A DNA stretch of 64,000 bases from Ectocarpus siliculosus (taxonomy: Eukaryota > Sar > Phaeophyceae > Ectocarpales > Ectocarpaceae). This document shows, piece by piece, positions 3,427-63,234 of this stretch. The stretch covers positions 1 to 64,000 of the forward strand of contig FN648456.1 of the NCBI GenBank assembly GCA_000310025.1, given 5' to 3'. Each line of letters opens with the position of its first letter. Position 1 is the stretch's first letter. The position numbers and the translations under genes were made by a program. The notes beneath the pieces were generated by a model, which was not told where the DNA came from, searched no databases, and saw nothing but the letters and a program-made list of their open reading frames with translations.

Positions 3427-3597
3427 AACCGGCCTTATATAGGGTGCGCGGATGCCCTAATAGGCCTTAAATAGGGACTAACCCTGTTTAAGGCCTATGC
3501 GGCCTTAAAAAGGAAGGAAAGTGTGACAGACGATTTCACCGGCCTTAAAAAGGGCCACCGGCCTTAAATTTGCGGCCTTAAACAGGGACCTCTACTG
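3427..3597 (-). repeat. P1 right terminal and subterminal inverted repeat
   Basis: Ends in GGGACCTCTACTG followed by TA. It holds at least six GGCCTTA motif copies and is the inverted partner of 1053-1257. Confidence 0.8.
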
Positions 3598-3675
3598 TAT
3601 GGCATACATGTACTTCCATGATGTGAGGACCGGGCAACAGCGGCAGGCCTTCATCAATAGAGTGGCAGCTAGACA

Positions 3676-3846
3676 CAGTGGGGGGCCCTCTATAGTGCCG
3701 GTTGAATAGTGCCAACTGCCGGTATAGTGCCGGTAAAATCTCTCCACACAGAAAGCGCCCTCAATAGTGCCAAACGGCACTATTGAGGGCGGGCCTGGTA
3801 TAGTGCCGGTTGGGCACCACGTCAGCCCGCAATAGTGCCGGTTCAC
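3676..3846 (+). repeat. P2 left terminal and subterminal repeat
   Basis: Starts CAGTGGGGGGCCC. It contains about six copies of the AATAGTGCCGGT-type motif in both orientations and is the inverted counterpart of 6168-6326. Confidence 0.8.
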
Positions 3847-3931
3847 ACACGCACGCACACACACCACCACACTCCCAAAATACAGACACCGTGCTGCTGC
3901 AGTCCAACACAGCTCTACGCAGAGGCGCACC

Positions 3932-5787
3932 ATGCCGTGTGCGGAAGGTGAACTGTGCCTTCAACAGAACAGAACGCCGAAGGCCCCTGATGGCCACGTC
4001 TGCAAGGGAGGATGTGGCGGGCGGCTCCATGGCACTTGCGGCAGCGTGGAGGGTGACTTCGAAACATCCCGCATCTGCAGTTCTTGCGTCGCTGCTAAGA
4101 CTGGCAAGCGCAAAGCGACCGCAGCTGGGGTTGATGCTGGGGCGGGACCATCTAAACGTCCGACAGAGAAAGGGGGGGGGAAGAAGGCTTCTCGCGCGCG
4201 GCTGAGCAACGCTGACAAGGTTGAGGTCCTCAAGCTGCTGGATGCCAAGATTTCTCATGAGCAGTTAGCAGATCGCTTTAAGTGCTCGGAACGGCTGGTC
4301 CGCAAGGTGAAAGCTGAACGGAAGGAAGTGGAGGCTAAGGCAGCTGCAGGCGACGGAAGCCAGAAAACCGCACGCAGAGGAGACTTTCCGGAGGTAGGTA
4401 GAGTACACGACATCCCTGGCAATTTCCTCTCGAACGTTGTTTTTCCCTGCCATTTTTCAAAAATGCCCTCATGTCGCCGATTTCTACTGCTGTATGTACC
4501 TTTTTTTTTTTGCCCTTCCTTGTTTCTTTGCCTTTCCCTTTTCGTCTTTTCGATGTATCATATGGTGGGTTTTTTTTTCATGTCACCTCCTTTTTTTCTT
4601 TCTGTTTGCCTTTTTTTGTTATGTCTTTGGCCTTTGAGGTCCTCGATGTCCACACTCATAGACCTTCCGATTATTTGTCCTTGAAATTGAAAGAGCACTG
4701 TTGTGTACATATTCGCACCCGCTTTTTTTTCAAAACAAACAAGCAGATGTAAGCAGATGTAAGCAGATGTAGCCTGTACGAGCGTCTCCTCGCAACTTTC
4801 CCTTTCCCCTCCCGCAATTTTTTCTTTCCGGGTGTAGTGGCACTTAAAAAACATCAGCTTTGTTTACGGTGTACCGCGGCGTCGTCCCTCGTATCTGCGC
4901 CGCGCAGTGTAGATGCTTACGTTTGAAACTAATCGTTGGTCGCTTGAACCTCTGCATTGTATACTCTTTTTCGCCGGCAGGTGGATGAGATAGTTATTGA
5001 TCTGCTCGATAAAGCCCGGAAGGCCAAGATGCCCGTCACACGGGACGTACTTCGAAGCTTCGGCCGTTCCACGGTGGCAACCCTGCTCGCTGAGCCCGCT
5101 ACTTCTGCAGCAGTGAGGGCGAGGGTCGAGGACTTCAAGGCCGGTGAAAAGTGGGCCAAGAACTTCGTGAAGCGCAACAAGGTGCTGAGTGCGAGACTTC
5201 ATGGCGAGGCTGGTAGTGTCGACCCAGCGGCCATCGAGAAGGGCATGGAGGAAGTCAGGAGCCTTTGCGCGAAGTACCCAGCTAGGTTCATCTTCAACGT
5301 GGACGAGACAGGCATCCAGTGGAAGCTTATGCCCAGGCGCACGTATCTTTCCTCCTCGGAGGACCGCAAGAAGGCGCGGGGCTCCAAGAGCATGTACTTC
5401 AAGGATCGGATGTCTGCCATCATGTGCAGCAACGCCGACGGCACTGCAAAGGTGGACATGGCCATCATCGGGAGGTGGAAGGTTTTTCGACAGGATGCAG
5501 CGGACGAAATGACGGCACAGCTAGCGGGAACGCGCCTATCTACCTGCCGCGAGGAGGAATCCGAAGATGAGGCGGACAGTGATCATGAGGACACGGGGGG
5601 CGGCCGCCGCGCCCCACCGGCTTACGGTGAACTGTCTTCTCACTTCGGCGTCCTGGAGGTGGCCGCGCGGGAGAGTGGAAACGGGGACGCTGCGTTCCAC
5701 CTATCGAAAGCGAAGATGGCGATGATCGCGGCGCATGCCGCTAAGGGCGTGCGCCAGACAGACATGAGAAAGTTTGTTGATGAATGA
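3932..5787 (+). CDS. P2 pogo-like transposase-derived protein, intact but without the DDE core
   Basis: Two exons, 3932-4393 and 4981-5787, with a clean GT-AG intron after DFPE; they join in phase into about 422 codons. In order: an N-terminal Cys/His cluster (residues about 1-60; GCGGRLHGTCG, CSSC), a basic linker, a psq-type helix-turn-helix (VEVLKLLDAK ... CSERLVRKVKAE), a CENP-B-like DNA-binding region (KWAKNFVKRN), then the start of the DDE domain (NVDETGIQWK, CSNADGTAKVDMAIIG). After GRWK the catalytic core, including the second and third acids, is absent. An acidic linker and the same C-terminal tail as in P1 follow. DNA binding should survive while cleavage should not. It may act as a repressor or be a passive deletion derivative (inference). 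The ATG has a favourable context (CACCATGC). Confidence 0.8.
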
Positions 5788-6167
5788 GGGGGGGACAGCT
5801 ATTATACCGCAGTTTTTTTCTTTTTGTTTTGTTTTATTTTTGTCCGCTTCGTTGCTGGCGCGTTTATTGGTTTTGTTGGCGTGTCTCATCACGCAACATC
5901 GTAGGGAGGCAGCGAGGAACGTGATATTTTTTCAAGTATACTAAGTTGCACGGACGGGAGCTGTACACGGGGTTTGGCTCCGAAGGTGAATTCTGCGCGT
6001 GCATGCGGGAATGGTTTCGCGGCAAACTCACCTATCAGAGTGGAACCCACATTTGTCTCAGAAAAGGCTGCCCCTGCCGCCCACAAAGTATATTCACCAC
6101 ACTCGATCCACATGCTACTCTGTTGGCCTCGCAAATGGTAAGCGATACACCATGAACTCAAACAGCA

Positions 6168-6326
6168 GTGCCTCAGTAGTGCCAGACCGGCACTACTGAG
6201 GGATATCGATCACCCGAATAGTGCCGTTTGGCACTATTGAGGCACTATTCCCAGTTGTGCCGGTGCCCGCTATAGTGCCGGTGAACGCCCTGCGCACGTA
6301 CCGGCACTATAGAGGGCCCCCCACTG
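6168..6326 (-). repeat. P2 right terminal and subterminal repeat
   Basis: Inverted partner of 3676-3846. It contains copies of CCGGCACTAT and TAGTGCC in both orientations and closes in GGGCCCCCCACTG followed by TA. Confidence 0.8.
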
Positions 6327-6328
6327 TA

Positions 6329-7690
6329 CGTGAAACACCAAATAGCCATGGTTGGTTGTTGTGGACACCAGCGTGCCTGTGTGCAGTGCAGGAGGGGTTT
6401 CGTCGTGAAGAAAATGCGTGGACAACAATAGTTGGGCAATGGCGTGTAGCAGCTCTAACAACTACCATGTCGATAGCTGCACAAACATACAAGCACAGCA
6501 ACACGTAAACCTGCTGTGGACAAACATCAGCGTGTCTGTGTACCGGGGGTTTCGTCATGAAGAGCACCGTGAGGACACAGCGTGTGCAAGAGGGATCGGA
6601 GAGCGGCACAACGGTTTGCAATAGTTTGCAACATCCAACGAGACGTAACCAAATGTGAAACGTCTGACAGCAACATCGGCGTCTTATGTGCAACAACAGC
6701 TGTATGTAGTACCGTATCAGTGCAAAACGAACAAGACCGCAGTCATCAGAGAACAAGCTGCCTGTGTTCGGCGACCCGCAGTCAAACGAATTATTAGTTG
6801 TGTTGATTGCGCGACCTTCATGGGAGAACGTCAACACACAACGAACGGTGCGCGCACCGAATTGTATATAACGAGAGTGTAGCTGAAGCAATAACCACAC
6901 AACAAGAAGGAGGCACTCCTTCGTGGTGCGACCCCAGGCCGCCTCATCAGTGTGTATGGCAGACATACGTGTGTGAGACCAAGCAGCCATGTCCGCCCCA
7001 GAGTTGTGGACAAACCGAACACCGAGCAGGTGTTCCACGGGCAACATTCGTGCGTGTGTCAACAGTGCTGCATCGATCGCAACGGAACCATACAGCAGTG
7101 CCATCCGACACACGACGCGCGCGCATGTCTCCGCGCGGACAGACAGCCTAGCACGGGCATGACACGTCAACTTGGAGTACGACGTCATACCCCGAAGAAA
7201 ACTCGCACGCGAACCAACGGGTGCAGATGTCAGCACGAAACATTCGTGTGTGTGCATTTTTTTTTTTTTTGAGAACTAACTAGCAAATCCATAACGTAGG
7301 TATGTTCTTCCGCAGAAATCAATGATGCTTGTCCGCACATAAGACCACCATGGTTGCAGTGTCCACGTCAAGAATACCGCCAAACACCATCCTGCACGCG
7401 GCACAGGGACGGACACCGATATGGCGGTGCAGACAAAACGGTTAGACTATAGTGTGGCGAGACCTACCAGCGTAGTCTATATATTTCGAAGGGCGTGGAG
7501 GAGGAAAACTCGCACCACAAAGATTGGCACACAACTTGTACATGAGTGTGTGTGTATTTGTTTTTTTTCTTTTTTTCATTCCATTGGCACGAAGCGGGCA
7601 TCGCACCTCTGGTTTGTCGTGTGCCCAGTGAGCAGCGCTGTTGGAAGAAGCGGCACCCAGATGTGGGCACTCCCCCCAAACGCAAAAGCA
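6329..7690. other. Degenerate non-coding stretch
   Basis: A 316-codon open frame spans the minus strand (7257-6307) but runs into the P2 terminal repeat, has no recognisable motif, and consists of short repeated phrases (GTGGACA, GCAGTGC, ACACACG variants). Two diverged copies of a roughly 65-bp segment (GTGGACACCAGCGTG-like and GTGGACAAACATCAGCG-like) are visible at about 6360 and 6518. I see no gene. Confidence 0.45.
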
Positions 7691-8070
7691 CGTCCTCTAA
7701 CAACGAGCCCTGATCGCTCAACTCATGCGGTTGTGGTCAAAGGACCCCCCCAAGGTCCAACGTAGCCCCCCCCCGTGCCCGGCACCAGCGCGGTGTAGCA
7801 CGGCGAAGCATAGGCCGCGATGGTCGCGTCCACGAACGTGGCCGTCTAGCGGTCAGGTTGACGAAGGAGTGGAGGTAAAAGCGGGCCTACCGGTGAGCGC
7901 GCAGTCGCTGTGGGGCCGAGAGAGCCACCGCCAAGCAGTCGCCGAAGCCGCCGCGGCGGAACGCCGCGTGTTGCGAGGCGGCCTGTTACTCTCTCAAGTA
8001 TTTCCTGTCTCCTCGATAGCTCCGGCGTGTTTCGGGAGAGAGAAAGAAAGGGGACTGAACGAGGTAGAGT
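7690..8070 (-). pseudogene. Inverted fragment of the tyrosine-recombinase gene (N-terminal part)
   Basis: The reverse complement resembles 24520-24870, the 5' part of the YR gene. Shared pieces include CGCCTCGCAACACGCGGCG, the stretch around CTATCGAGGAGA, and GCCGTGCTACAC. The copy is broken by indels and has no long frame. Only the 5' flank and N-terminal Ala-rich region are present; no recombinase domain follows. Confidence 0.6.
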
Positions 8071-24418: not shown

Positions 24419-24477
24419 GTAATCTCGGATTTGAGACGCATCTAGATTTCGGAACGAAATCGGGAAGAGTCAGATAT
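24419..24477 (-). repeat. 59-bp inverted repeat, right copy
   Basis: Inverted match of 9442-9500. It lies 107 bp before the start codon of the YR gene. Confidence 0.5.
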
Positions 24478-24583
24478 TCCAGAAAGGATGTTGGAAAATG
24501 ACCCCACCTAGTTTAGTCCCCCTTTTCTCTCCCGAAATACGCCGGAGCTATCGAGGAGAAGGGATATATTTGAGAGTCGTAAC

Positions 24584-26462
24584 ATGCCGCCTCGCAACAC
24601 GCGGCGCTCCACGGCGGCGACTTCGGCGGCTGCTTCTTCTACAACGGCTTCCTCAGCGGCTGCGCCTGCTTCCTCAGAGGCTTCTGCCCCGGCGGCGGCT
24701 GCCGCGGCCCCAGCGGCTGCCAGCGCGCCGATGGGACCGCTTTCCCTGCCTCCACCTGGGCTGCCTCCCCGGCCCGACCGCCAGACGGCCGCGTTTGTGG
24801 ACGCGACCACGGCAGCCTACGCTCTGCCGTGCTACACGGCGCTGGTGCCGGGAGCAGGGGCAACGCTAGACCTTGGGCGGGTGTTCGACCGCAACCGGCT
24901 CGGTTGCGATCAGGGCACTGTGGAGGAGCTGGTCCTCCGTTTGGGTGAGGTGGCCACTCGGCTGCCGCCCCTTCCCGGGGTGGAGACCTACACGGCAGTT
25001 TTGGCGCGCGCCAGGAAGGTGGCCACTTCGCGGGCGGGCGACAAGTCAGTTGCCTACCGCCAGGCCGAGGCGAAGAAGCTCCTGGCCGAGTACACTGTGG
25101 AACTCGCGCTCCGCCATGGCCGCCTCCTGCAGTCAGAAGGCTGTGTTCGTCGTGCCAGACGGAAAACGTGGGACATTACAACTATTGTTGATCCTGCGGT
25201 GTTCAGCCTGCCCGCGGGCGTCCGGTACCGCGTGACCCTCAAGCGGCTCGGGTGTCGATCGATTTCGACGCGCTGCGCGCTCGTGGTGATCAGGTCCTCT
25301 CGGCCGCGTCTAACCGTCGTGCTCAACAGTGCAAGTGCGCCGTAGCGGACGGGTTCGACGCTTTCATACTTTCGGCGACTGAACAACGTCGGGGTTGGAA
25401 GCAGGCGTCGGACCGAGACGTGTTTGACTATCTCTGCTTCTTGGAAACACAAGGTAGTGGTACCAAGCGGGTGCACGACAGGGCATGCCCTGGTGTCGGC
25501 ACGACTCACGGCCGCGATTGTCTTCCAAACACGCCATGTGCTAAGCGGAGTGCCGCCGCGTCCATGCAGAAAGGGATCGTGTCCAAGCTGAAGATGGCAA
25601 TGCAAGAACTGTTGGGAAAAGACAGCAGCTGGGACCCTGCCACGCGCTCGGGCAACCCCTGTTGTAGTCCTCTCGTCGACTCCTACCTCGTCTTCACGGG
25701 GGAGGAAAAAAAATGTGTGGGTGTCGCTGTCAACCAGGCAGAGGCTATGTTACCGCACGTCCTCATCGATCTGTTGAGGGACATGCGCTCTCGCGCGCAG
25801 ACTGCGTCCTCTTTGGCGGAACGTATTGAGCTCACCAGGGACGTCGCTTTGTTTTCGCTGGCGTTCGCCTCCATGCGGCGAGGCCATGATCTCTCCTTCA
25901 CTATGGGATCGCAAGTTCTGCGGTTGCCCGCGGGGCAGGGTCTTCTGATTTTCAACTTCCAGTTTGGCAAGACCCTCCGGGACTCTGTTGATGCCGTGGT
26001 CGTGCGTCCGGACGTCGCTTGCCCGTCTATTTGTGCGGTGAGCAATTTTACGGCCTACATCAGTGCGGCGGAGCGTATTGGCTGGGATTTGTCCCAAGGG
26101 CATCTGTTTCCTATCGTTCTGCTGGATGGAACTCGGGGCTGCGCTCCGCTTACGGCGGTTCAGATGACGGCTGCCCTACAAGGGCATTTCCGAGCGGCGG
26201 GACTGCCGCACCGCTACTATGCACTCGTTCCGCGTCGGAGGTTCTGTAGCGCAGTCGCTTGACGGAACGGCGATGGTCGCTATCATGAAAATTGCCGGGT
26301 GGCGCACGGAGAGTGTAGCGAAGCGATATGCTGGCGCCACTACTAGTGTGGGGGAACCGGGTTCCAAGAGGACCCGTAGCGAGCTGTACGCAGACTCAAA
26401 CGCGTTGCCGTTGTCTGCTGACTTCACATGCGATTTCTCTGCGTGTGCTCGCCGCGAAACAT
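24584..26462 (+). pseudogene. Tyrosine recombinase (Crypton/DIRS-type), two frameshifts
   Basis: Starts with an Ala/Pro-rich N-terminus (residues 1-60), then a helical region (DQGTVEELVLRLGEVATRL). Frame one runs to about 25250, where a 1-base shift passes to a frame continuing as VSIDFDALRARGDQVLSAA and ending at 26262. A second shift near 26220-26240 restores the C-terminus to 26462. The catalytic set of a tyrosine recombinase is there but split: first Arg in FASMRRGHDLSF, HxxR in MHSFRVGG, Trp in AGWRTES, and the Tyr nucleophile in AKRYAG. A Cys-bearing insertion (NPCCSPLVDSYLVF, EEKKCVGV) lies before the first Arg. Such enzymes move Cryptons and DIRS elements by recombination. I see no reverse transcriptase beside it, so Crypton-like is possible. 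A broken copy of the 5' part is at 7690-8070. Confidence 0.75.
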
Positions 26463-26612
26463 AAAGAAAGTTTGGGTGGGCGAGACCTAGCTTAGAGGCT
26501 GAGTGGTCAATAACTAAGATGTGACAGATCGGATAATTAACAAGAAAGTAATGGGCGGGACCACAGACCGGCGCAAGAGGCCTCACCCAACCAAATCCAA
26601 TACTTACATCGA

Positions 26613-27590
26613 ATGATCTGGGTAAGGGATAAGAATATAACAGGATCCGGCTACGAGAGCCGCTTCAACCAGCCACTCGAAAGTATCAGTATGCCTCCTA
26701 ATTTGAAGCAACTTTCGCTAGAAAGCACATTCAACAGGTCCATCGAAGGTGTGACTTTCGTAGATTCCATCGAGGACATTCGTCTAGGAGGATGCTTCAA
26801 CCAGCCAATCGCCGCAGTCCGGTGGCCCAGTAGCTTGCAACGTTTGGCGTTTGGTACGTGCTTTGACCAGACATTGGCCGGCTATCATTGGCCGGATGCA
26901 TTGATCGCTCTGACGGCCGGTGATGCGTTCCAGCAGAACCTGCTAGGCGTTATCTGGCCTGATTCGCTGCAGTATCTCACCTTGGGGGGTGCGTGGAACG
27001 GGGGGCTGAGGCCTCCTGTGGTACTCCCTGCCACGCCCAAGGTCCTACGGTTGGGGGGGAGTTTCAACAGCCCAATACAAGGCATGCAGTTGCCTGACGG
27101 GCTGTAGGAGGTGTCGTTTCCCTTAAAATTTAACCAGGAGGTTGATGCCGTTCATTGGCCCAGGAACTTGCATAGGTTGTGTTCCCGGATGATTTGGACG
27201 ACATGGTTTCCGTCGAACGCGCTAAGTGGCCGTCCACGCTAGAAGCTTTCGAGTTTGGGTCAGGCTGCGGGTGGCGTGTAAGCGACACCACCTGGCCTAC
27301 GAGCCTAAAGACGTTGGTGCTTGAGGGTAAGTTCAACACGAAGGTTTACACCTTGCAGTGGCCGCCTGGATTGGAGTCGCTTGCCTTCGGGGGACCATTC
27401 AATCACTCTCGAGTCATGTTGGGCTCCTACCCGGAAGGAGTTGTCGTTTGGCAAACGCTTCCAACAACCACTGTCAGGCGTACGTTGGCCGAGAGCTATA
27501 GTCGAACTGAGGTTTGACGGGATGTCTACAGGTGACGGTTTTACGTGTGGTTACATGTGGCCAAGGTCGCTGAAGAGAGGTTCAGTTTAG
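26613..27590 (+). pseudogene. FNIP/LRR-like repeat protein, fragmented
   Basis: Tandem repeats of 22-24 residues with consensus W-P-x-S-L-x-x-L-x-F-G-x-x-F-N-Q-P-L-x-G-V. Examples are VRWPSSLQRLAFG, YHWPDALIALTAGDAFQQNL and VIWPDSLQYLTLGGAWN. The first frame (26613-27107, 164 codons) ends at a stop after LPDGL. Repeats continue past it in other frames (WPSTLEAFEFG, TWPTSLKTLVLEGKFN, QWPPGLESLAFGGPFN, FGKRFQQPLSGVRWP), requiring at least two shifts. About eleven repeat units can be counted. This is the FNIP type of leucine-rich-like repeat known from amoebae, giant viruses and stramenopiles. I see no F-box or other partner domain. It lies directly after the YR gene and may have been carried with it or hit by it. 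Confidence 0.75.
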
Positions 27591-27642
27591 AGATGCATCT
27601 TTGACTCGTTGAAAGGAAAAACACTTGAAGCGCGCAGTAATA

Positions 27643-27904
27643 GGAAGGTTTGTTCGTCGAAGCAGATAGAATAAACTGGTGTTTATTTTGTAACAGTCGA
27701 ATTAGAATTTGGCTTCATTTTCTACCGGAAACCCAGGGTCACGGTGTTTGGAATTATTAGTCTATAGTTGGGGGTGTCATTCCGTGATCGAGTCCACGCA
27801 GGGGCTGTAGCAAAGTCGGGTAACGTGTGACAGCTACAGAGCGCGTGAAGCAACGGAAGGACAGCAGCAGCCGCCTAACGCAGTAGCGGCGGCAGTTTAG
27901 AAAA
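27643..27904 (+). repeat. Split direct repeat A1
   Basis: 262 bp, starts GGAAGGTTTGTTCGTCGAAG and ends GGCAGTTTAGAAAA. Direct copy of 33340-33601. Confidence 0.9.
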
Positions 27905-29059
27905 GGGCGGGACGGGACACGGCGCAAGCATTGGGGAAGTGACCAGCACGCGACTCTCCATATAAAGGTGTGTACTCGTGTCCAACATCCATCGTGTCGG
28001 CCGTGTTCCTATTCGCGTCCCGCTACTCTTGTGACCTCACCGCTGCGTGCATTTAGCACGAGGGGGGAGGGTGCAGTAAGATAAGCGGCGGCAAGCCAAC
28101 GCAGTCTCGCTCGCCGCGCCGCTCAGATAGGTCCCTTCCCAAACATGGGATGCGGTTCATCCCAACCGAGACGTACTCTCGCTGAAGAAAAAAAATGCGG
28201 TTCGTCCCAACCAGACGTACTCTCTCTGAAGAAAAAATTCAACGGCAAAAAGAAAGAGCGGGGCCTGTTGTATGGTCGCACGCTGACTTGTCGCGGTTGA
28301 TAGCAGCCATTGTACTGCACGGGGTGGAGGAACCCTGCGGCATCGGACATAACCAATCGACCCGCGGCAGTAGGGCATGATGCTGTCACGATTATGCACA
28401 TGGGGCAGGTGCCTTGTTTTCTGTTTCCCCCGGCTTACTAGGGACTACTTGCCGGTACAATCTTGTCTGTGCCGCGCACAGAGGGGCATATAGCTGAAGG
28501 AATCGACGATAATATGCCCACTCACGTAAGCAATCGTCTCCACGGATGGTATTGACAAGTCCCCACTGATGGTATCGACAAGTCCCATGGCATACAAAGC
28601 GGCCGCATACGTAATCGGAAAGTGCATTCAACAGCATTCACGGGAACGGATAAAAGCAAAAACACATGCATGCGAGAGAAAGACTCAAAGAAAAAGACTG
28701 AAAAACAATGAAGACGAGAAAAAAAAACGAGACAGCGAACTACGTGCTGTATGCATAAGGAAAAAGAAGATGTGAAAAAAATAGGGGGGGGAGGTGGATG
28801 TGACACGCGAGGTTCGAACTCACGAGGAACGTCAGGTAGCGGTACATGTGAGTGCATCACGGTCTCGAGGGGCATCACGTCAAATTTATTGCCGCCGTGA
28901 CACAAACCTTCTATAAGAATACGTCACGTCCATCGACGATTAAGCGACCAAAAACGCCCCGGACAGCAATTGATGCATGCCAAAAACTCGTCAACCTGCC
29001 GTAGGATTGTCTATGCGGAAGTGATCTCAATGAAAATAAAAAAAAACAAGGACACGCAC
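27905..29059. other. 5' internal region of the split-repeat element
   Basis: Non-coding by my reading. It holds a two-copy tandem repeat of about 46 bp (ATGCGGTTCATCCCAACC at 28149 and ATGCGGTTCGTCCCAACC at 28194) and a purine-rich tract near 28680-28790. No reverse transcriptase motif is visible on either strand. Confidence 0.55.
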
Positions 29060-30550
29060 CAGCACGGGACGCGCCAATAGTGGAAGCACTCGTCCGTGCT
29101 GTTGGCGAGTGAAAGTTAACCGATCTCAACGCAACGAAACACGAAGTCATACATGTATCAGCACGGGATGCGCCAATGAGTGGAAGCACCCGCGCTGTTG
29201 GCGAGTAGAGTTAACCGAATTCAACGCAGCGGTAGAAAAATACCACAAATCATGCATCAGTACGGGACGCGCCAATGAGTGGAAGCACCCGTGCTGCATA
29301 TGTGATGTCAGCCTCAGCACGGGACGCGCCAATGAGTGGAAGCACTCGTGCGGTTGGTGAGTAGAGTTAACCGATCTCAAAAAGAAAGAACAAAACGCCG
29401 TACATGTATCAGCACGGGACGCGCCAATGAGTGGAAGCACCCGCGCTGTTGGCGAGTAGAGTTAACCGAATTCAAACGCAGCGGTAGAAAAATACCACAA
29501 ATCATGCATCAGTACGGGACGCGCCAATGAGTGGAAGCACCCGTGCTGCATATGTGTTGTCAGCCTCAGCACGGGACGCGCCAACGAGTGGAAGCACTCG
29601 TGCTGTTGGCGAGTAGAGTTAACCGATCTCAAAAAGAAAGAACAAAACGCCGTACACGTATCAGCACGGGACGCACCAATGAGTGGAAGCACCCGCGCTG
29701 TTGGCGAGTAGAGTTAACCGAATTCAACGCAGCGGTAGGAAATACCACAAATCATGCATCAGTACGGGACGCGCCAATGAGTGGAAGCACCCGTGCTGTA
29801 TATGTGTTGTCAGCCTCAGCACGGGACGCGCCAACGAGTGGAAGCACTCGTGCTGTTGGCGAGTAGAGTTAACCGATCTCAAAAAGAAAGAACAAAACGC
29901 CGTACACGTATTAGCACGGGACGCGCCAATGAGTGGACGCACCCGTGCTGTTGGCGAGTAGAGTTAACCGAATTCAACGCATCGAAAACGAAGTCGTACA
30001 CGTATCAGTACGGGACGCGCCAATGAGTGGAAGCACCCGTGCTGCATATGTGTTGTCAGTTTCAGCAAGGGACGCGCCAATGAGTGCTGTTGGCGAGTAG
30101 AGTTAACCGATCTCAAAAAGAAAGAACAAAAACGCCGTACACGTATCAGTACGGGACGCGCCAATGAGTGGGCGCACCCGTGCTGTTGGGCGAGTAGAAT
30201 TAACCGATCTCCACGCATCGAAAACGAAGTCATACACGTATCAGTACGGGACGCGCCAATGAGTGGAAGCACCCGTGCTCATATGTGTTGTCAGTTTCAG
30301 CAAGGGACGCGCCAATGAGTGGAAGCACCCGCGCTGCGTACAAGTATCATCAGTGCGGGTCGCGCCAATGAGTGGAAGCACCCGTGCTGCATATGTGTTG
30401 TCAGTTTCAGCGAGGGACGCGCCAATGAGTGGAAGCACCCGCGCTGTTGGCAAGTGGAGTTCACCGTATCCAACGCATCGAAAAAAAAAAAAAACACGTA
30501 TCAGCACGGGACGCGCCAATGAGTGGAAGCACCCGTGCCGATGGCGAACC
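29060..30550. repeat. Array of 19 hairpin units with three-unit higher-order period
   Basis: Each unit is about 39 bp with CAGCACGGG at one end and CCCGTGCTG at the other, enclosing ACGCGCCAATGAGTGGAAGC; a 9-bp stem is possible. Some units keep pairing through G-T (CAGTACGGG with CCCGTGCTG). Starts are spaced about 98, 58 and 96 bp, giving a higher-order period of 251-252 bp (29170, 29422, 29674, 29925). Three spacer types alternate: GTTGGCGAGTAGAGTTAACC followed by one of two tails, and CATATGTGTTGTCAGCCT. Short open frames through it are a by-product. Confidence 0.85.
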
Positions 30551-30861
30551 GGGGTTCACCGAATCCAAGAAAATATATATATAAAAAAAAAAAAAAGAGA
30601 AACCATCGCTAGTGTTCCAAAGAGAGAAATATTCGGGATTGGTCGACGTCCGGTGACCGTAGCGTCAGCAGCAATAATCACTCCATTCAATCCACAGGCG
30701 TCGAGAATGAACTAACGCGAGCTCGCGATATAACAACGCGTCGTTCTGGGCCCGACGAAAACCCACGTCAGATAGTTTCGCCCGAAGATAGGATTTGTAG
30801 ACCATTCTAACTGCAGATCCAGGCGCGCGATCGACTACGCCCACGATGAAGAGGAAAAGAA

Positions 30862-31811
30862 GTGTTCCCGCAACGCCGCCCTGACGCTCGCCCGCCGCCT
30901 GCCGCCGGTCCGCTGCTTATACGACTCCAACCGCGACCAGATGCCGACACGGGCCTCCACGCGGAGCGGCAGGGCAGCGGCTGGGCAAGCAGGGCGAGGT
31001 CGGGCGGCGACACCTTCGACACCACGCACGAGAGGTCTACCGCGCGATCGGTGGCGAGCTCGACGGCTCGCCCCTCGACGCGCAGCGGATCACGTACTCC
31101 CGCGAGGCGTCGAGCGGTATCCTCCTCGCGAGCGCCAGGGACAGGCACCCGCGGCGACCCCCCCGCTGATGAGACTGAGCTCGCTTCTCTCCGCGGGCTG
31201 GTGGACGGCCTGAGGGAGGAGCTGCAGCGGAAGCGCGATGAGGCTGCCGGTGATCGCCAGCAGCTTCAAGCAACGATCGACGACCTGATCGCCACCCAAG
31301 CAGCAGGACCTGGCCTTCCGGGGGGGGGGTGCAACTTGTGGGGCACAACCGCCCCACCATCGGCCTCTCGGGCCCCCGCTACACCCAGCGCCGAGGCGGC
31401 TAAGGCTACGGCAAAGGATAGAGCGCGGATGTGGGGGGACCTCCGCCGGGTAAAAGCGTGGCTCATCCTGGGGCGGCCCCCGGCAGTTTCAAAACTGTCG
31501 CAGATGGAGTGGCAATCCTTGCTTCGCAAAGGCGTCCTGGTGACAGAGAAAGTGGCGGCATCGCTCGACACGCTCGTGGTTACTGCTTCGCCTTCAACTC
31601 GTCGTCCGGTTGCCATGATCGTAACTGCCCACACATCCACGCCCAGAACCCTTCCCACGCTAGGCGCGGAGCGTCCGAAACTCCGGCAACCGGCGCGCGC
31701 GGCGTTGGCCACGGCAACGGGGGAGGGCGCGGAGGAGAGGCGCGCGCCGCTGGCGAGGGCGGCGCGAGACCCAAGGCCGCTGGCTTCTTCACCCACGGGA
31801 AAGACAAATAG
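30862..31811 (+). pseudogene. Gag-like protein with CCCH finger, one frameshift
   Basis: The first frame (30862 to about 31560) has an Arg/Pro-rich N-terminus, a coiled-coil segment (LASLRGLVDGLREELQRKRD) and a helical domain (ARMWGDLRRVKAWLILGRPP, SQMEWQSLLRKGVLVTEKVA). A 1-base shift near 31540-31570 leads to ARGYCFAFNSSSGCHDRNCPHIH, a compact CCCH finger (CX8CX4CX3H) like those ending DIRS-type Gag proteins. A Gly/Ala/Arg-rich tail ends at the stop at 31809-31811. The next gene starts less than 100 bp on, leaving no room for reverse transcriptase. Gag would bind element RNA. The shift is either a lesion or a frameshift site. Confidence 0.65.
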
Positions 31812-31904
31812 GGGTGCGGGCTCTCCCGCGTAGCGGGGGGGCCTACCTCGGATGGCAGCGCACCTGCGGCTAAATCGAACGGCAGCACGCCGGTCTACAC
31901 GAGG

Positions 31905-33059
31905 TTGGCTCCAGGGCTATCAGCAGGTTCAGGACCTGGGACAGGCAGGACGGGACTTTGTTACCGACGTCTTGGCATGCAGCTCGTCGAGCACTCAGTT
32001 GCGTCTTCGTCTAGAAGGACTTACACGTCAGGCTTCAACTCTTGGTGCACGTTTCGCAGGCTGACGGAGAAGCCCAAGTTCCTAGGGCAACGTGCCGGGG
32101 ACCTTCATGTGTGGGAGTTGATAGACTTCGTAGCCTGGTGTTTCGAGTCTGAGGGTAATCTAGCGAGTACAATATCCGGAAAACTCACGGCTGTACAACA
32201 TTTTCATAGGCTGGAAGCTTCTGTCGAGCTAGACTTGTCGTCTCCGATGTTGAAATGTGCGCTAAGGGGGATTGCGAGGAACCACGTGGCTGTGGGGACG
32301 GTACGCCGTGTGCGCCTGCCTGTGTCTTGGCGTATGCTGCTGGACGGGGAAAGCGCAAGCCAGAACTGGGGGGAAGGGGGCAGAGTGATGTGGCTGTGTC
32401 TGTGCTTGTCCTATCTCTTTATCACACGGTCTGATGAGGTGTTCGCGAATGATGCGGGCAGGGTGCATGAGGCACACTGTCTTACGAGGGCGGACGTAGC
32501 ATTGTTTGCTGGCGAGACGCAATTAGTCTTTAGTCACTATCGTAGAGCAGACCGTGTCGAAATGAGGTTTAGAGGGCACAAGGCCGATCAAGAGCAGAAA
32601 GGAAACATACGGGTTCGTACGCGAGACGAAGTCACCGGACCGCAGTCAGGTGTGAGAGCACGCGGTGGCGCGGTGGCTCTTGTGGTGGAGCTGTTATCGT
32701 GTCATGCGACGTTCCCTGACTCCGCACCGTTGGCTTCGTACCGTAGTGGAAGAGCAGTGAGAGTAGTGAGGTATACTGCTGCCCTCCGTGCACTCAGAGA
32801 AGTGGTAGCGAGGTCGGGGCGTAACCCCCAGGAGTACGCGTTGCACTCGTTGCGAATTGGAGGCGCGACGGCTCTTGCATCGGGCGGAGACATCGCAGAA
32901 CGAGTGATTCAGAGAGAAGGGAAGTGGAGGTCGGATGCATACAAGCCGTACGCGCGAAACAATGTAGAGGATTCGCGGCGAGTGTCACGGAAACTTACAG
33001 ACGGCAGTAGGATCGTATCGAGACAGCCGGGGGAGGGGACCGTCTGGGGGAACGGATAG
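31905..33059 (+). CDS. Tyrosine recombinase of the split-repeat element
   Basis: 384 codons, uninterrupted. The N-terminal core-binding domain begins around SSSRRTYTSGFNSWCTF (residue about 35) and runs through WELIDFVAWC and ISGKLTAVQHFHRL. The catalytic domain has the first Arg in LFITRSDEVF, a candidate Lys in RGHKADQEQK, HxxR in ALHSLRIGGATAL, Trp in GKWRSD, and the Tyr nucleophile in YKPYAR. All positions needed for strand exchange are present, so it could be active. It probably recombines the circular element with the target, as in DIRS, PAT and Ngaro. The stop at 33057-33059 lies 41 bp before B1. The start is the first ATG in frame; translation could begin slightly earlier by frameshift from gag. 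It is only distantly similar to the YR at 24.6 kb. Confidence 0.85.
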   Translation: MAPGLSAGSGPGTGRTGLCYRRLGMQLVEHSVASSSRRTYTSGFNSWCTFRRLTEKPKFLGQRAGDLHVWELIDFVAWCFESEGNLASTISGKLTAVQHFHRLEASVELDLSSPMLKCALRGIARNHVAVGTVRRVRLPVSWRMLLDGESASQNWGEGGRVMWLCLCLSYLFITRSDEVFANDAGRVHEAHCLTRADVALFAGETQLVFSHYRRADRVEMRFRGHKADQEQKGNIRVRTRDEVTGPQSGVRARGGAVALVVELLSCHATFPDSAPLASYRSGRAVRVVRYTAALRALREVVARSGRNPQEYALHSLRIGGATALASGGDIAERVIQREGKWRSDAYKPYARNNVEDSRRVSRKLTDGSRIVSRQPGEGTVWGNG

Positions 33060-33100
33060 TTGACTTATTCGGTAGTCGTCCAGAAACTGACCTCGATGTG

Positions 33101-33339
33101 GGTGTTGTAGAATGGTGTGTACCATTTGAGGACTTGGTCAGTTTTGGGACTCCTGCGTTTGCAGTCGTAGTCCCCCGGCTAGTATTTGTGGGGAGAGAGA
33201 TGGATTTGTAAGAGTTGACGCCGGCCTTTGCAGCTAACGCGGCCGGAGAGACGATGAGCGTTTCGTGCGTCTCTCTCCCCAACACGTAGCCTAGAAACCG
33301 AAGAAATAATGAAGCAATTCGAAAGAAAACAAAATAAAA
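33101..33339 (+). repeat. Split direct repeat B1
   Basis: 239 bp from GGTGTTGTAGAATGG to GAAAACAAAATAAAA. Direct copy of 33670-33908. Confidence 0.9.
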
Positions 33340-33601
33340 GGAAGGTTTGTTCGTCGAAGCAGATAGAATAAACTGGTGTTTATTTTGTAACAGTCGAATT
33401 AGAATTTGGCTTCATTTTCTACCGGAAACCCAGGGTCACGGTGTTTGGAATTATTAGTCTATAGTTGGGGGTGTCATTCCGTGATCGAGTCCACGCAGGG
33501 GCTGTAGCAAAGTCGGGTAACGTGTGACAGCTACAGAGCGCGTGAAGCAACGGAAGGACAGCAGCAGCCGCCTAACGCAGTAGCGGCGGCAGTTTAGAAA
33601 A
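33340..33601 (+). repeat. Split direct repeat A2
   Basis: 262 bp, direct copy of 27643-27904, abutting B1 with no spacer. Confidence 0.9.
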
Positions 33602-33669
33602 TCCCGCCCTCCCATCCCTTTTCTTTCGAAGGTGGGGGCATAAGTTCGGGAATATTCGGTATCTAGTCA

Positions 33670-33908
33670 GGTGTTGTAGAATGGTGTGTACCATTTGAGG
33701 ACTTGGTCAGTTTTGGGACTCCTGCGTTTGCAGTCGTAGTCCCCCGGCTAGTATTTGTGGGGAGAGAGATGGATTTGTAAGAGTTGACGCCGGCCTTTGC
33801 AGCTAACGCGGCCGGAGAGACGATGAGCGTTTCGTGCGTCTCTCTCCCCAACACGTAGCCTAGAAACCGAAGAAATAATGAAGCAATTCGAAAGAAAACA
33901 AAATAAAA
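33670..33908 (+). repeat. Split direct repeat B2
   Basis: 239 bp, direct copy of 33101-33339. Its last base is the right end of the element. Confidence 0.9.
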
Positions 33909-35819
33909 TGCGGGGAAATGCCTGGTGGTGACCAGCTCCATACTTCGTGATGAACGATCGTGGTTTTGTAGACCAGGGCATTCGAGCTCGCTCTGGCACG
34001 GTGGGGTGAAGAGGTTTACGAATGGCGCCCCGTGCATGTTCCGACGCGGGGTATTCCCTGGTTTTCTTTGTGGGACTTCAGTCGTTCGTGTTGTGCCACG
34101 TTTGTTTCTCGCAGTTGTTTGGCGTTTTCAATCGAAGTGTATGGAACGACTTATTACCATCATCGGGTCCTCATGGGTTTTTCTCTCTCGCAGTTGTTTA
34201 GTGTTTTCAATCGAAGTATGGCACGACTTACTACCCTCAGCGGGTCCTCCAAGGTCATTCTCTGCCTCAATGGAAGTGACATCCTTGCGGCTGCCTGCTT
34301 AATTTTCAGTGGTCGTTACCTGTTGCCATGTTCTCGTATACCGTGTATCGGCAAGAGCGTCCGCGGGTGTGTTTTCGGTGAGAGGCTTCAAGGTGACGAC
34401 AACCGCGTACGTATATGACCATTTTTGTACGGCCTTCCCAGGTTTCTATTGGTGGCGTCCAACTTGGTATGGCGACAGTACTCTCATTTTCGTCGTGAGA
34501 CGTATACGACACTTTTCATTGTACGCAGAGTAATAAAATGTACACTTTCAGTATCCTTTTTCCGTACAACTACAACCATCCAAGGCTACACAGGAGGGGT
34601 GTGTGGACAAGAAATCCAATCCTTGTCGGCAGCTCCTGCGTACGGCAACGAACAGCACGTATTACAAGTAATTTAGCTTTCGATGTCCCTTGTAAGTACC
34701 AAAGCACGTGGTTCAGCCTTGTAGCCGGTCACGAGGAAAACTTGACCCACAGCTTCACGCACGAGGTGTTGCGACACGTCATTCCATGTAGGTACACTGT
34801 TCGTGGTTGCCAACCTCCGTGAGAGGTTGTGCCAGCGGACTCCCACCTCTTCTTGCACGAGGACGACGACAAGAGTGCCCAGGACAACAAAAGCAATCTT
34901 TGGGAAGATGTGGCGCATAGAACCCTCCGTTGACAAGGCCCCTCACGCATAAATATTTTCTACCACGAGCATTTACCTTATTTTTTGCTCGTTTTATCCA
35001 AAGAACACACCACACTTATTCCATTCGCCGTACACTGCGACACAACCCCGAACAATCACACACATGATCTACGTTATTACCAAAGTTGGGTGCACACGCT
35101 CAGCCTAGTTGAACTGCTGCGCAGCGTATCACCGTGCCCGCCGCAATGTCTAAAAGGCCAACGGTGCGGTCCATGGACTCTGCGGTAACGCTTGGGGCGG
35201 CAGCAGCAATGGAATCAGCATGATGTAACAAGTTGTGGCCATGAACAAAAGCGAAGAGTCGAGTTATTCGCTGTTGGTACGTACACCAAGGCTGTAAACT
35301 GCGACCGGGGCGGCAACTCACTGGCGCTAACCCTCACGCGCCCCCGATACCCTTTCGCTGGGGGGGACGCGACCCCGACCATAATGCCATCTGACTAGAG
35401 TAGCGTTTCCAGCTACCTGCCCTTGGTAGCTGATGACCTTCCGCTTGAAATACGTGCTCTGGGATCTTTACACTTCGTATATACGCATTTCCTCCGTCAG
35501 TCAGACTATGCCTTCATATGTTGCTAGGTGATGGATCATCGCCTTTCTTTGTCATGGGTGGTAAGCATAGCGCGCGTATGCATCCAGTTTACGCGAGGTT
35601 GAACGGTAAGGACAGGCGCCACAGGTGAATGGCTTACGAGTACCAGCCATGCGCAGTGTTGCATCGCGTTACCCGCTGTGTGCCCCCGAGAAAGAGAGTG
35701 GCTTGTCCGAGAGGAAGAAAATGCCGGGTGCCGAACCCAAAGTGTCCACAACGAGGAGTACGTATGCATACATCTAACAGAGGGAGTTTTGCAATTTCCA
35801 ACGTCGTTCCCATAGTCTA
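33909..35819. other. No gene recognised; one short tandem duplication
   Basis: A 79-bp step separates two copies of CTCGCAGTTGTTTGGCGTTT / CTCGCAGTTGTTTAGTGTTT near 34109 and 34188, each followed by an AACGACTTA/CACGACTTA block. Other frames are short and unlike known proteins. Confidence 0.45.
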
Positions 35820-62721: not shown

Positions 62722-62952
62722 CTACGGTGTTTGCGAACATCTGATTCTGGTCTTCTTGTCTTGATCTTTTTTGTCCCCTCGAGCGCCGAAGTCCGATGGA
62801 TCTTTAGGAATCTGGTCTTTTGCTTTCGCGAATTGCCCCCGAAGACCCGAGAAAAGCCCCGATTTTGTCTTGCTCAGTTTTGTCTTTGAAAGAATACTCC
62901 CGACGTCCTCCCGACAGACGCCGCACCATCCCGTCGAGCTGCCGAAACACAC
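62722..62952 (-). CDS. Possible exon, Lys-rich
   Basis: Minus-strand open frame with a charged segment (LRGQFAKAKDQIPKDPSDFG followed by a Lys/Asp-rich end). I do not recognise a family, and no splice partner is identified. It is listed only because its composition is more protein-like than its surroundings. Confidence 0.2.
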   Translation of the reverse strand: MCFGSSTGWCGVCREDVGSILSKTKLSKTKSGLFSGLRGQFAKAKDQIPKDPSDFGARGDKKDQDKKTRIRCSQTP

Positions 62953-63234
62953 ACAACTCGGCCGTCATAGGCGACACCATGGCGAACCAACTACAGCAGT
63001 ACCGCCAGCCAGAAAGTCATATAGAGTCACTGCACCGCACACCCGATGCGCATTGCATGCTGCCGACATGGAGCAGCTTTTGCGTTATCTTAGATGTATA
63101 TGCATGCTTGAACCGAAGCATGCCGCTCTACATGCATGCATGCATGCTCATAAGTGACACATCAAGCCGGCGTGAGGAGGGTGAGGCGGTGAGGCGGGCG
63201 GCATAGATCTCAGGAGTGTGGCACAGGTGCAATC

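Follow-up and report, generated by a model that had tools for sequence, protein, structure and literature searches.

A predicted non-autonomous tyrosine recombinase retrotransposon derivative without reverse transcriptase in Ectocarpus siliculosus

Tyrosine recombinase (YR) retrotransposons of the DIRS order include the PAT-like and Ngaro-like groups (definitions in parts of PMC4157794, PMC3266345 and PMC6681497). Split direct repeats are arranged as A1...B1A2...B2. Insertion is without target-site duplication. Genes are gag, reverse transcriptase with RNase H (RT/RH) and YR. The element described here is located at positions 27643–33908 of the window, i.e. the whole analysed stretch of 64,000 nucleotides from Ectocarpus siliculosus (contig FN648456.1, positions 1 to 64,000, forward strand). 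By its sequence it is assigned to this order as an RT-less YR retrotransposon derivative with split direct repeats. The repeat arrangement and the duplication-free insertion are shared with both groups. The gene set of the groups is also that of the RT-bearing parent copy L043, whereas RT/RH is missing from the window form and its gag is not intact.

SIRE is a truncated, non-autonomous derivative of VIPER, an element with split direct repeats (part of PMC6681497); it comprises the A2–B2 region without YR, whereas the window element keeps YR. Repeated internal deletion variants of a split-direct-repeat YR element are given for type 2b Ngaro of Cafeteria burkhardae (part of PMC8547959); that deletion removes ORF1, not RT, whereas the window element lost RT. 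Cryptons encode YR and no RT (part of PMC3212892), and the window element differs from them in its RT-bearing ancestry and split direct repeats. A long terminal repeat retrotransposon was rejected, as duplications are absent at two sites and YR is present instead; no search was aimed at a DDE domain. The Ectocarpus catalogue of transposable elements comprises 15 Ngaro and 5 PAT-like families (part of PMC12477816), and the present family may already be among them. No description of an RT-less, YR-keeping derivative was found in the portions of text covered, including those of PMC12477816, PMC4157794, PMC3266345, PMC6681497, PMC8547959 and PMC3783388, with subscription papers, preprints and supplements outside the search. 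The element is not a new class. It is notable for its success and recurrence.

Anatomy of the element and of its RT-bearing relative

The features of the window element, all on the forward strand, are as follows.

27643..33908, forward: whole RT-less element (repeats, alignment to RT-bearing L043, empty site AGTAATATGCGG)
27643..27904, forward: A1 terminal repeat, 100% identical to A2 and 98.1% to A1 of L043
27905..29000, forward: leader without an assigned long frame, identity to L043 85% (1124 alignment columns), 10 indels
29060..30550, forward: tandem array, period about 252 bases, 17 imperfect-palindrome units
30776..31811, forward: gag remnant in several frames, CCCH motif at 31584, minus 510 + 79 bp relative to L043
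31812..31928, forward: first 39 codons of the parent RT frame, continuous in frame with YR, ending at the RT/RH deletion point (GCAGGT)
31812..33059, forward: open YR frame, 415 codons including the stop, first Met at 31977
33101..33339, forward: B1 repeat, 100% identical to B2
33340..33601, forward: A2 repeat, directly 3' of B1 (repeat comparison, B1-A2 junction)
33602..33669, forward: 68-base spacer from A2 to B2, 100% identical in L043
33670..33908, forward: B2 terminal repeat, 100% identical to B1

The element is 6.27 kb in length. Its ends are 27643–33908 or 27642–33907 (one A is ambiguous and could be assigned to A1). The A-type pair (267 nt each, 27638–27904 and 33335–33601) and the B-type pair (239 nt each, 33101–33339 and 33670–33908) are each 100% identical. 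The B1-A2 junction reads ...AAATAAA-A-GGAAGG..., i.e. the end of B2 fused to the start of A1. Intact repeats and such a junction had been reported in a preliminary description of this DNA, and both observations are confirmed.

RT/RH is absent and not decayed, as had also been proposed: three RT-RH queries (L043, L039 and Ngaro L022; tblastn, E ≤ 0.01) gave no match in the element or anywhere else in the window, and alignment to L043 leaves RT/RH as one clean gap. L043 (contig C74, reversed) is 8.4 kb in length, of the order A1-leader-Gag-RT/RH-YR-B1A2-B2, with termini as in the window copy. A leader and palindrome array lie between its A1 and gag. Its features are as follows.

L043, 1297–1558: A1
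L043, 3955–5646: gag frame, 564 aa
L043, 5583–7886: RT-RH frame, 768 aa
L043, 7706–8881: YR frame, 392 aa
L043, 8926–9165: B1
L043, 9166–9427: A2
L043, 9496–9734: B2

The window copy lacks L043 positions 5700–7747 (2,048 bp, RT/RH), with the 6-bp repeat GCAGGT at both borders, and the gag stretches 4753–5262 (510 bp) and 5391–5469 (79 bp). The deleted length, 2,048 bp, is not divisible by three, and for this reason the remaining RT stub of 39 codons is in frame with YR. The alignment shows a copy that, as read from these gaps, has lost RT/RH and parts of gag by internal deletions and has kept its termini, leader with array and YR. Of the three enzyme and structural genes, only YR is predicted to remain whole.

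The YR frame is open from stop to stop, and its first Met is codon 56. Residues R206, H345, R348, W372 and Y380 occupy what we take to be the catalytic positions of tyrosine recombinases and are conserved in YR relatives; to this extent the frame agrees with the open, catalytically complete YR predicted earlier. In a profile alignment to Ngaro YR (E 3.1e-5, probability 73%) H, R, W and Y are aligned. Pfam gave nothing useful for the YR and gag frames, with no match to the window YR at E ≤ 1. A YR relative 39–42% identical (L034) matches Phage_integrase at E 0.0046, below the curated cut-off. Single-sequence structure prediction of YR gave no usable fold (mean pLDDT 30.2).

The single Gag-like frame of the preliminary description was not recovered: gag is split over frames shifted by indels and two deletions. 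Its closeness to YR stands, the last piece (31422–31811) ending at the base before the YR frame. This piece carries a motif CX8CX4CX3H at 31584, read by eye, present also in L043 gag and without a Pfam match.

The palindrome array, also present in L043 (14 units) and L011 (12 units), is a possible packaging or binding signal; the comparison of its folding energy covers just ten mononucleotide shuffles. The palindromes are of the CAGCACGGG...CCCGTGCTG type.

YR relatives detected with PF00589 led to L039 and to the parent, L043. A genome search with Pfam RVT_1 (150 matches, the best 150 of 1041 candidates) did not reach it. A DIRS-type RT query (115 matches; best 150 of 348 candidates) led to Ngaro elements, of which the four examined (L021–L024) have other termini and another YR and were rejected. 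A profile comparison relates RT-RH of the L043 clade to that of Ngaro (E 1.7e-12, probability 97.7%); Pfam RVT_1 matches L043 RT only at E 0.02. More distant relatives, L039 with L033, likewise have the order gag-RT-YR (RT 39% identical, YR 37–39%).

No methyltransferase, a PAT feature, was detected in L043 (three frames, E ≤ 10), as in Ngaro; the negative is a weak one, RT itself reaching only E 0.02 there. The CCCH-like gag motif, by eye a putative zinc finger, would point to Pat1-like elements. Ngaro elements of the same genome (L021–L024) have an RT-RH homologous by profile and a YR that is only remotely related. In these copies the window A repeat has no match and the B repeat has only short, weak ones (best E 0.46). 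In the N-terminal half of the L022 Ngaro YR (5855–7408) Pfam gives a weak match to the ALOG domain (E 7.9e-5, below the cut-off), with which the title of PMC3537659 agrees.

Copies, insertion sites and terminal repeats

A 27-base pattern of the RT-less junction (≤2 mismatches) matches 107 times across the 189-Mb genome, and its reversed-pattern control not at all; among the 100 listed, 88 are exact and 12 have one mismatch. The exact gag-YR junction, for which a search had been advised, is thus common to many copies. Full-length relatives with RT/RH exist as well: the RT-side junction of the parent (28 bases, ≤3 mismatches; control 0) was found at seven places (C14, C27, C74, C79, C156, C187 and C147). 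The protein search alone adds C85 (93%) as the eighth RT-bearing place. RT-less and RT-bearing places stand at about 15 to 1 (107 versus 7).

Genome searches with the YR protein and both repeats gave 102 listed YR matches (best 101 of 755 candidates scored), at least 40 A and at least 40 B matches, all listed repeat matches being 100% identical. The recombinase is identical, with top score, in 13 of the listed YR matches, the window copy included. Full-length YR (codons 1–415) is without stop in 43 of the 102 (own count). Because of these 102 matches and the junction count of 107 against 0, the element is not a chance arrangement. Many near-identical copies with identical terminal repeats suggest recent activity of the family. 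Copies L059, L060 and L061 are still shorter and consist of the left end and a little leader placed nearly directly on YR, which lacks its first codons.

The unoccupied window site reads AGTAATATGCGG in three of three fetched copies and the unoccupied L012 site GAAAACTGGC in two of two. Both fit insertion of A-GGAAGG...AAATAAA with neither target-site duplication nor loss. When the joined flanks of ten pairs were searched, the best 40 of 973 candidates comprised 31 rows for the window and 9 for L012, and none for the other eight pairs. The base before GGAAGG is A in all 12 copies with a left flank and may be the element's own; several left flanks appear A-rich (raw look, without background comparison). 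Apparent precision of this kind suits a tyrosine recombinase, not a DDE enzyme. Both flanks of the window copy (27564–27642 and 33904–33981) are part of a repeat for which 31 of the 40 matches listed are unoccupied; the element therefore sits inside another repeat.

In ten elements with both pairs, A1 and A2 differ by 0–3 substitutions (sum 5; L017 plus 2 gap columns) and B1 and B2 by 0–4 (sum 7). For L019 the count leaves out an additional first A, and for L044 it covers only 234 bases of A2, the rest being displaced by an insert. Between the window copy, L011/L012, L043 and L044, A1 differs by 3–16 and B1 by 3–10; L011 and L012 differ from each other by 4 (A1) and 1 (B1). The contrast of within and between is clear for L011, L012 and L043. 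Likeness within elements is predicted by one template per round of copying. In the reverse-transcription model the repeats are nearly identical at insertion (part of PMC6681497). Gene conversion could mimic this likeness.

Rearranged ends were observed in three copies: L018 has an extra 569-base B-A unit (5471–6847), and L010 (1124–1762, about 377 bases) and L019 (435–1148, about 452 bases) have partial left-end repeats.

Descent of the RT-less groups

The RT-less junction occurs in two groups, with YR divergence of about 5–6% between them. Copies L011–L014 have the same RT-deletion end points as the window group and a different gag deletion (4773–5462). L062 belongs with them and has an additional small deletion beside the junction. 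In L011 an extra 2.6 kb is present between array and gag (3561–6120), partly absent from L013 and L014. L011–L014 had been suspected as RT carriers from this extra DNA; they hold parts of the stretch, and there is no RT in it.

In the YR tree (31 rows; L018 and L001–L008 left out, the latter being near-identical window-type rows) RT-bearing copies nest among RT-less ones. RT-less copies do not form one clade (25 versus 6 rows; log-likelihood difference 26.4, approximately unbiased test p-AU 0.0016). Bootstrap correlation is 0.989 and support values are rough. A second such test (p 4.6e-7) was discounted, as it obliges L059–L061 to group with the RT-bearing copies. The split of the groups in YR is matched by a variant base left of the junction (GGCA/GGCT): L011–L013 and RT-bearing C187 are on one side, the window copy and RT-bearing C74, C27, C79, C156 and C14 on the other.

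Two RT deletions at the same repeat are therefore preferred on these comparisons to spread by recombination. The converse, one ancestral RT deletion recombined later onto diverged copies, is a variant of the same overall reading and is given appreciable but minority weight. Recombination among retroelements is common, which counts for it, as do the identical deletion end points of both groups; the rejection of one RT-less YR clade and the parallel division by the GGCA/GGCT base stand against it.

The gag centre (30 bases, ≤3 mismatches) has 12 matches: six RT-bearing places, five with the RT-less junction (C11, C269, C344, C71 and C137) and one (C492) with neither among the matches listed. C187, the seventh RT-bearing place, is outside the 12. 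Because five RT-less copies keep the gag centre, loss in the window group was stepwise. C71 and C137 (L049 and L050) are basal in this group with modest support (86/88 and 82/75).

Proposed mobilization and alternatives

The element is with high probability, as read from its anatomy and relatives, a non-autonomous deletion derivative of an RT-bearing parent family in the same genome, using borrowed Gag and RT, a circle and YR insertion without duplication. What favours a derivative is that RT/RH fills the gap in L043, a copy with matching termini. The best-supported route would be RNA copying by a partner's RT, followed by tyrosine recombinase insertion. Element RNA would be packaged and reverse-transcribed by Gag and RT of RT-bearing relatives. 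A DNA circle containing a B-A junction would be synthesized with the A and B repeats as guides. Tyrosine recombinase, own, partner's or both, would insert the circle without target-site duplication. A derivative with its own recombinase and borrowed RT was one of two options offered earlier; its derivative part is upheld by the termini of L043, and for its other part we infer insertion by the element's own YR.

Past constraint on YR is plausible from comparison with L043. No indel occurs in the 1080 aligned bases of YR, against 4 in 792 (5, 1, 2 and 1 bases) in the 5' part of gag and 10 in the 1038 bases of the leader. Were the gag rate to apply, YR should have about 5.5, and the Poisson chance of none is about 0.004 (own arithmetic); gag homopolymers weaken this comparison. 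The ratio of nonsynonymous to synonymous rates (dN/dS) is 0.16 for window and L043 (14 synonymous changes, 7 other), 0.16–0.49 for L043 with C79, C187, C147 and C156, and 0.36–0.49 for the window copy with L011–L014 and L062.

Several points weigh against the proposed derivation and mobilization. Neither RNA, circle nor enzyme was observed. dN/dS of the window copy with seven RT-less copies of its own group is 0.38–2.62, a range that does not prove that YR is now under selection. One copy detected by its A repeats, L018, has lost most of YR and yet has both ends; own YR is therefore not always kept. Most copies came from searching with YR, which biases the sample towards YR-keepers. Gag, RT and YR are all open in one (L043) of the three RT-bearing copies fetched far enough; in the other two, gag (L044) or RT (L045) is interrupted. 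In L044 the repeats differ within the element (3 A, 4 B) as much as from the window copy (3, 3), and copies of the window group differ by 0–1 only and are uninformative, so that the contrast of repeats rests on L011, L012 and L043.

Non-autonomous retrotransposons usually retain cis signals only. Here one enzyme of three is kept, uninterrupted at full length in 43 of the 102 listed recombinase matches. The family is a testable case of which YR-retrotransposon functions are shareable in trans (Gag, RT) and which possibly act in cis (YR). RT-less YR-keepers might represent a stable strategy, with RT deleted twice at the 6-bp repeat, YR kept whole through a mainly cis action on circles from the element's own RNA, Gag and RT borrowed, and the fusion of RT stub and YR as the functional recombinase; this stronger form is doubtful. 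L018 has lost YR, and YR is broken in the neighbouring Ngaro piece (24419–26643).

A DNA route by YR alone, in which a B2-A1 circle is excised and reinserted in Crypton-like manner without RT, is improbable. It would account for YR as the only whole gene and for the B1-A2 junction equal to B2 plus A1, and precise duplication-free insertion would look alike. The ancestry, however, is that of an RT-bearing retrotransposon, and a rise to about 107 copies is unexplained by cut-and-paste alone. Within each of L011, L012 and L043 the A1/A2 and B1/B2 pairs are almost the same, and they differ from element to element; repeated excision would not restore such likeness (gene conversion could). The second option offered earlier, a gag-YR lineage moving by another route, is likewise disfavoured, as repeats are mostly more alike within elements than between subfamilies. 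If such a separate lineage never had RT, the occurrence of the same RT-less junction in two groups about 5–6% apart in YR would be in its favour; it is nevertheless very improbable, as the YR frame begins with 39 parent RT codons, L043 has RT/RH exactly in the gap, and RT-bearing copies nest among RT-less ones. An assembly artefact, or separate insertions that by chance brought A and B copies together, can be dismissed: small rearrangements occur in L010, L018 and L019, but nothing of the kind at the window copy, elements built in the same way lie between different flanks on other contigs, and the window site also exists in unoccupied form.

A Ngaro-family piece (24419–26643, 97% identical to L021) is located 1 kb from the element. 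RT/RH is entirely missing from this piece, which retains A1, the leader, one B and most of a YR that is interrupted by a stop and a frameshift. It may be a second, older RT-less case with the YR region kept. An open frame left of the element (26541–27107) encodes five FNIP repeats (Pfam E 6e-20). The window ends resemble DNA beside other YR retrotransposons: positions 1–110 are 95–98% identical to L034 and L041, and positions 62791–63229 match L040 at 77%.

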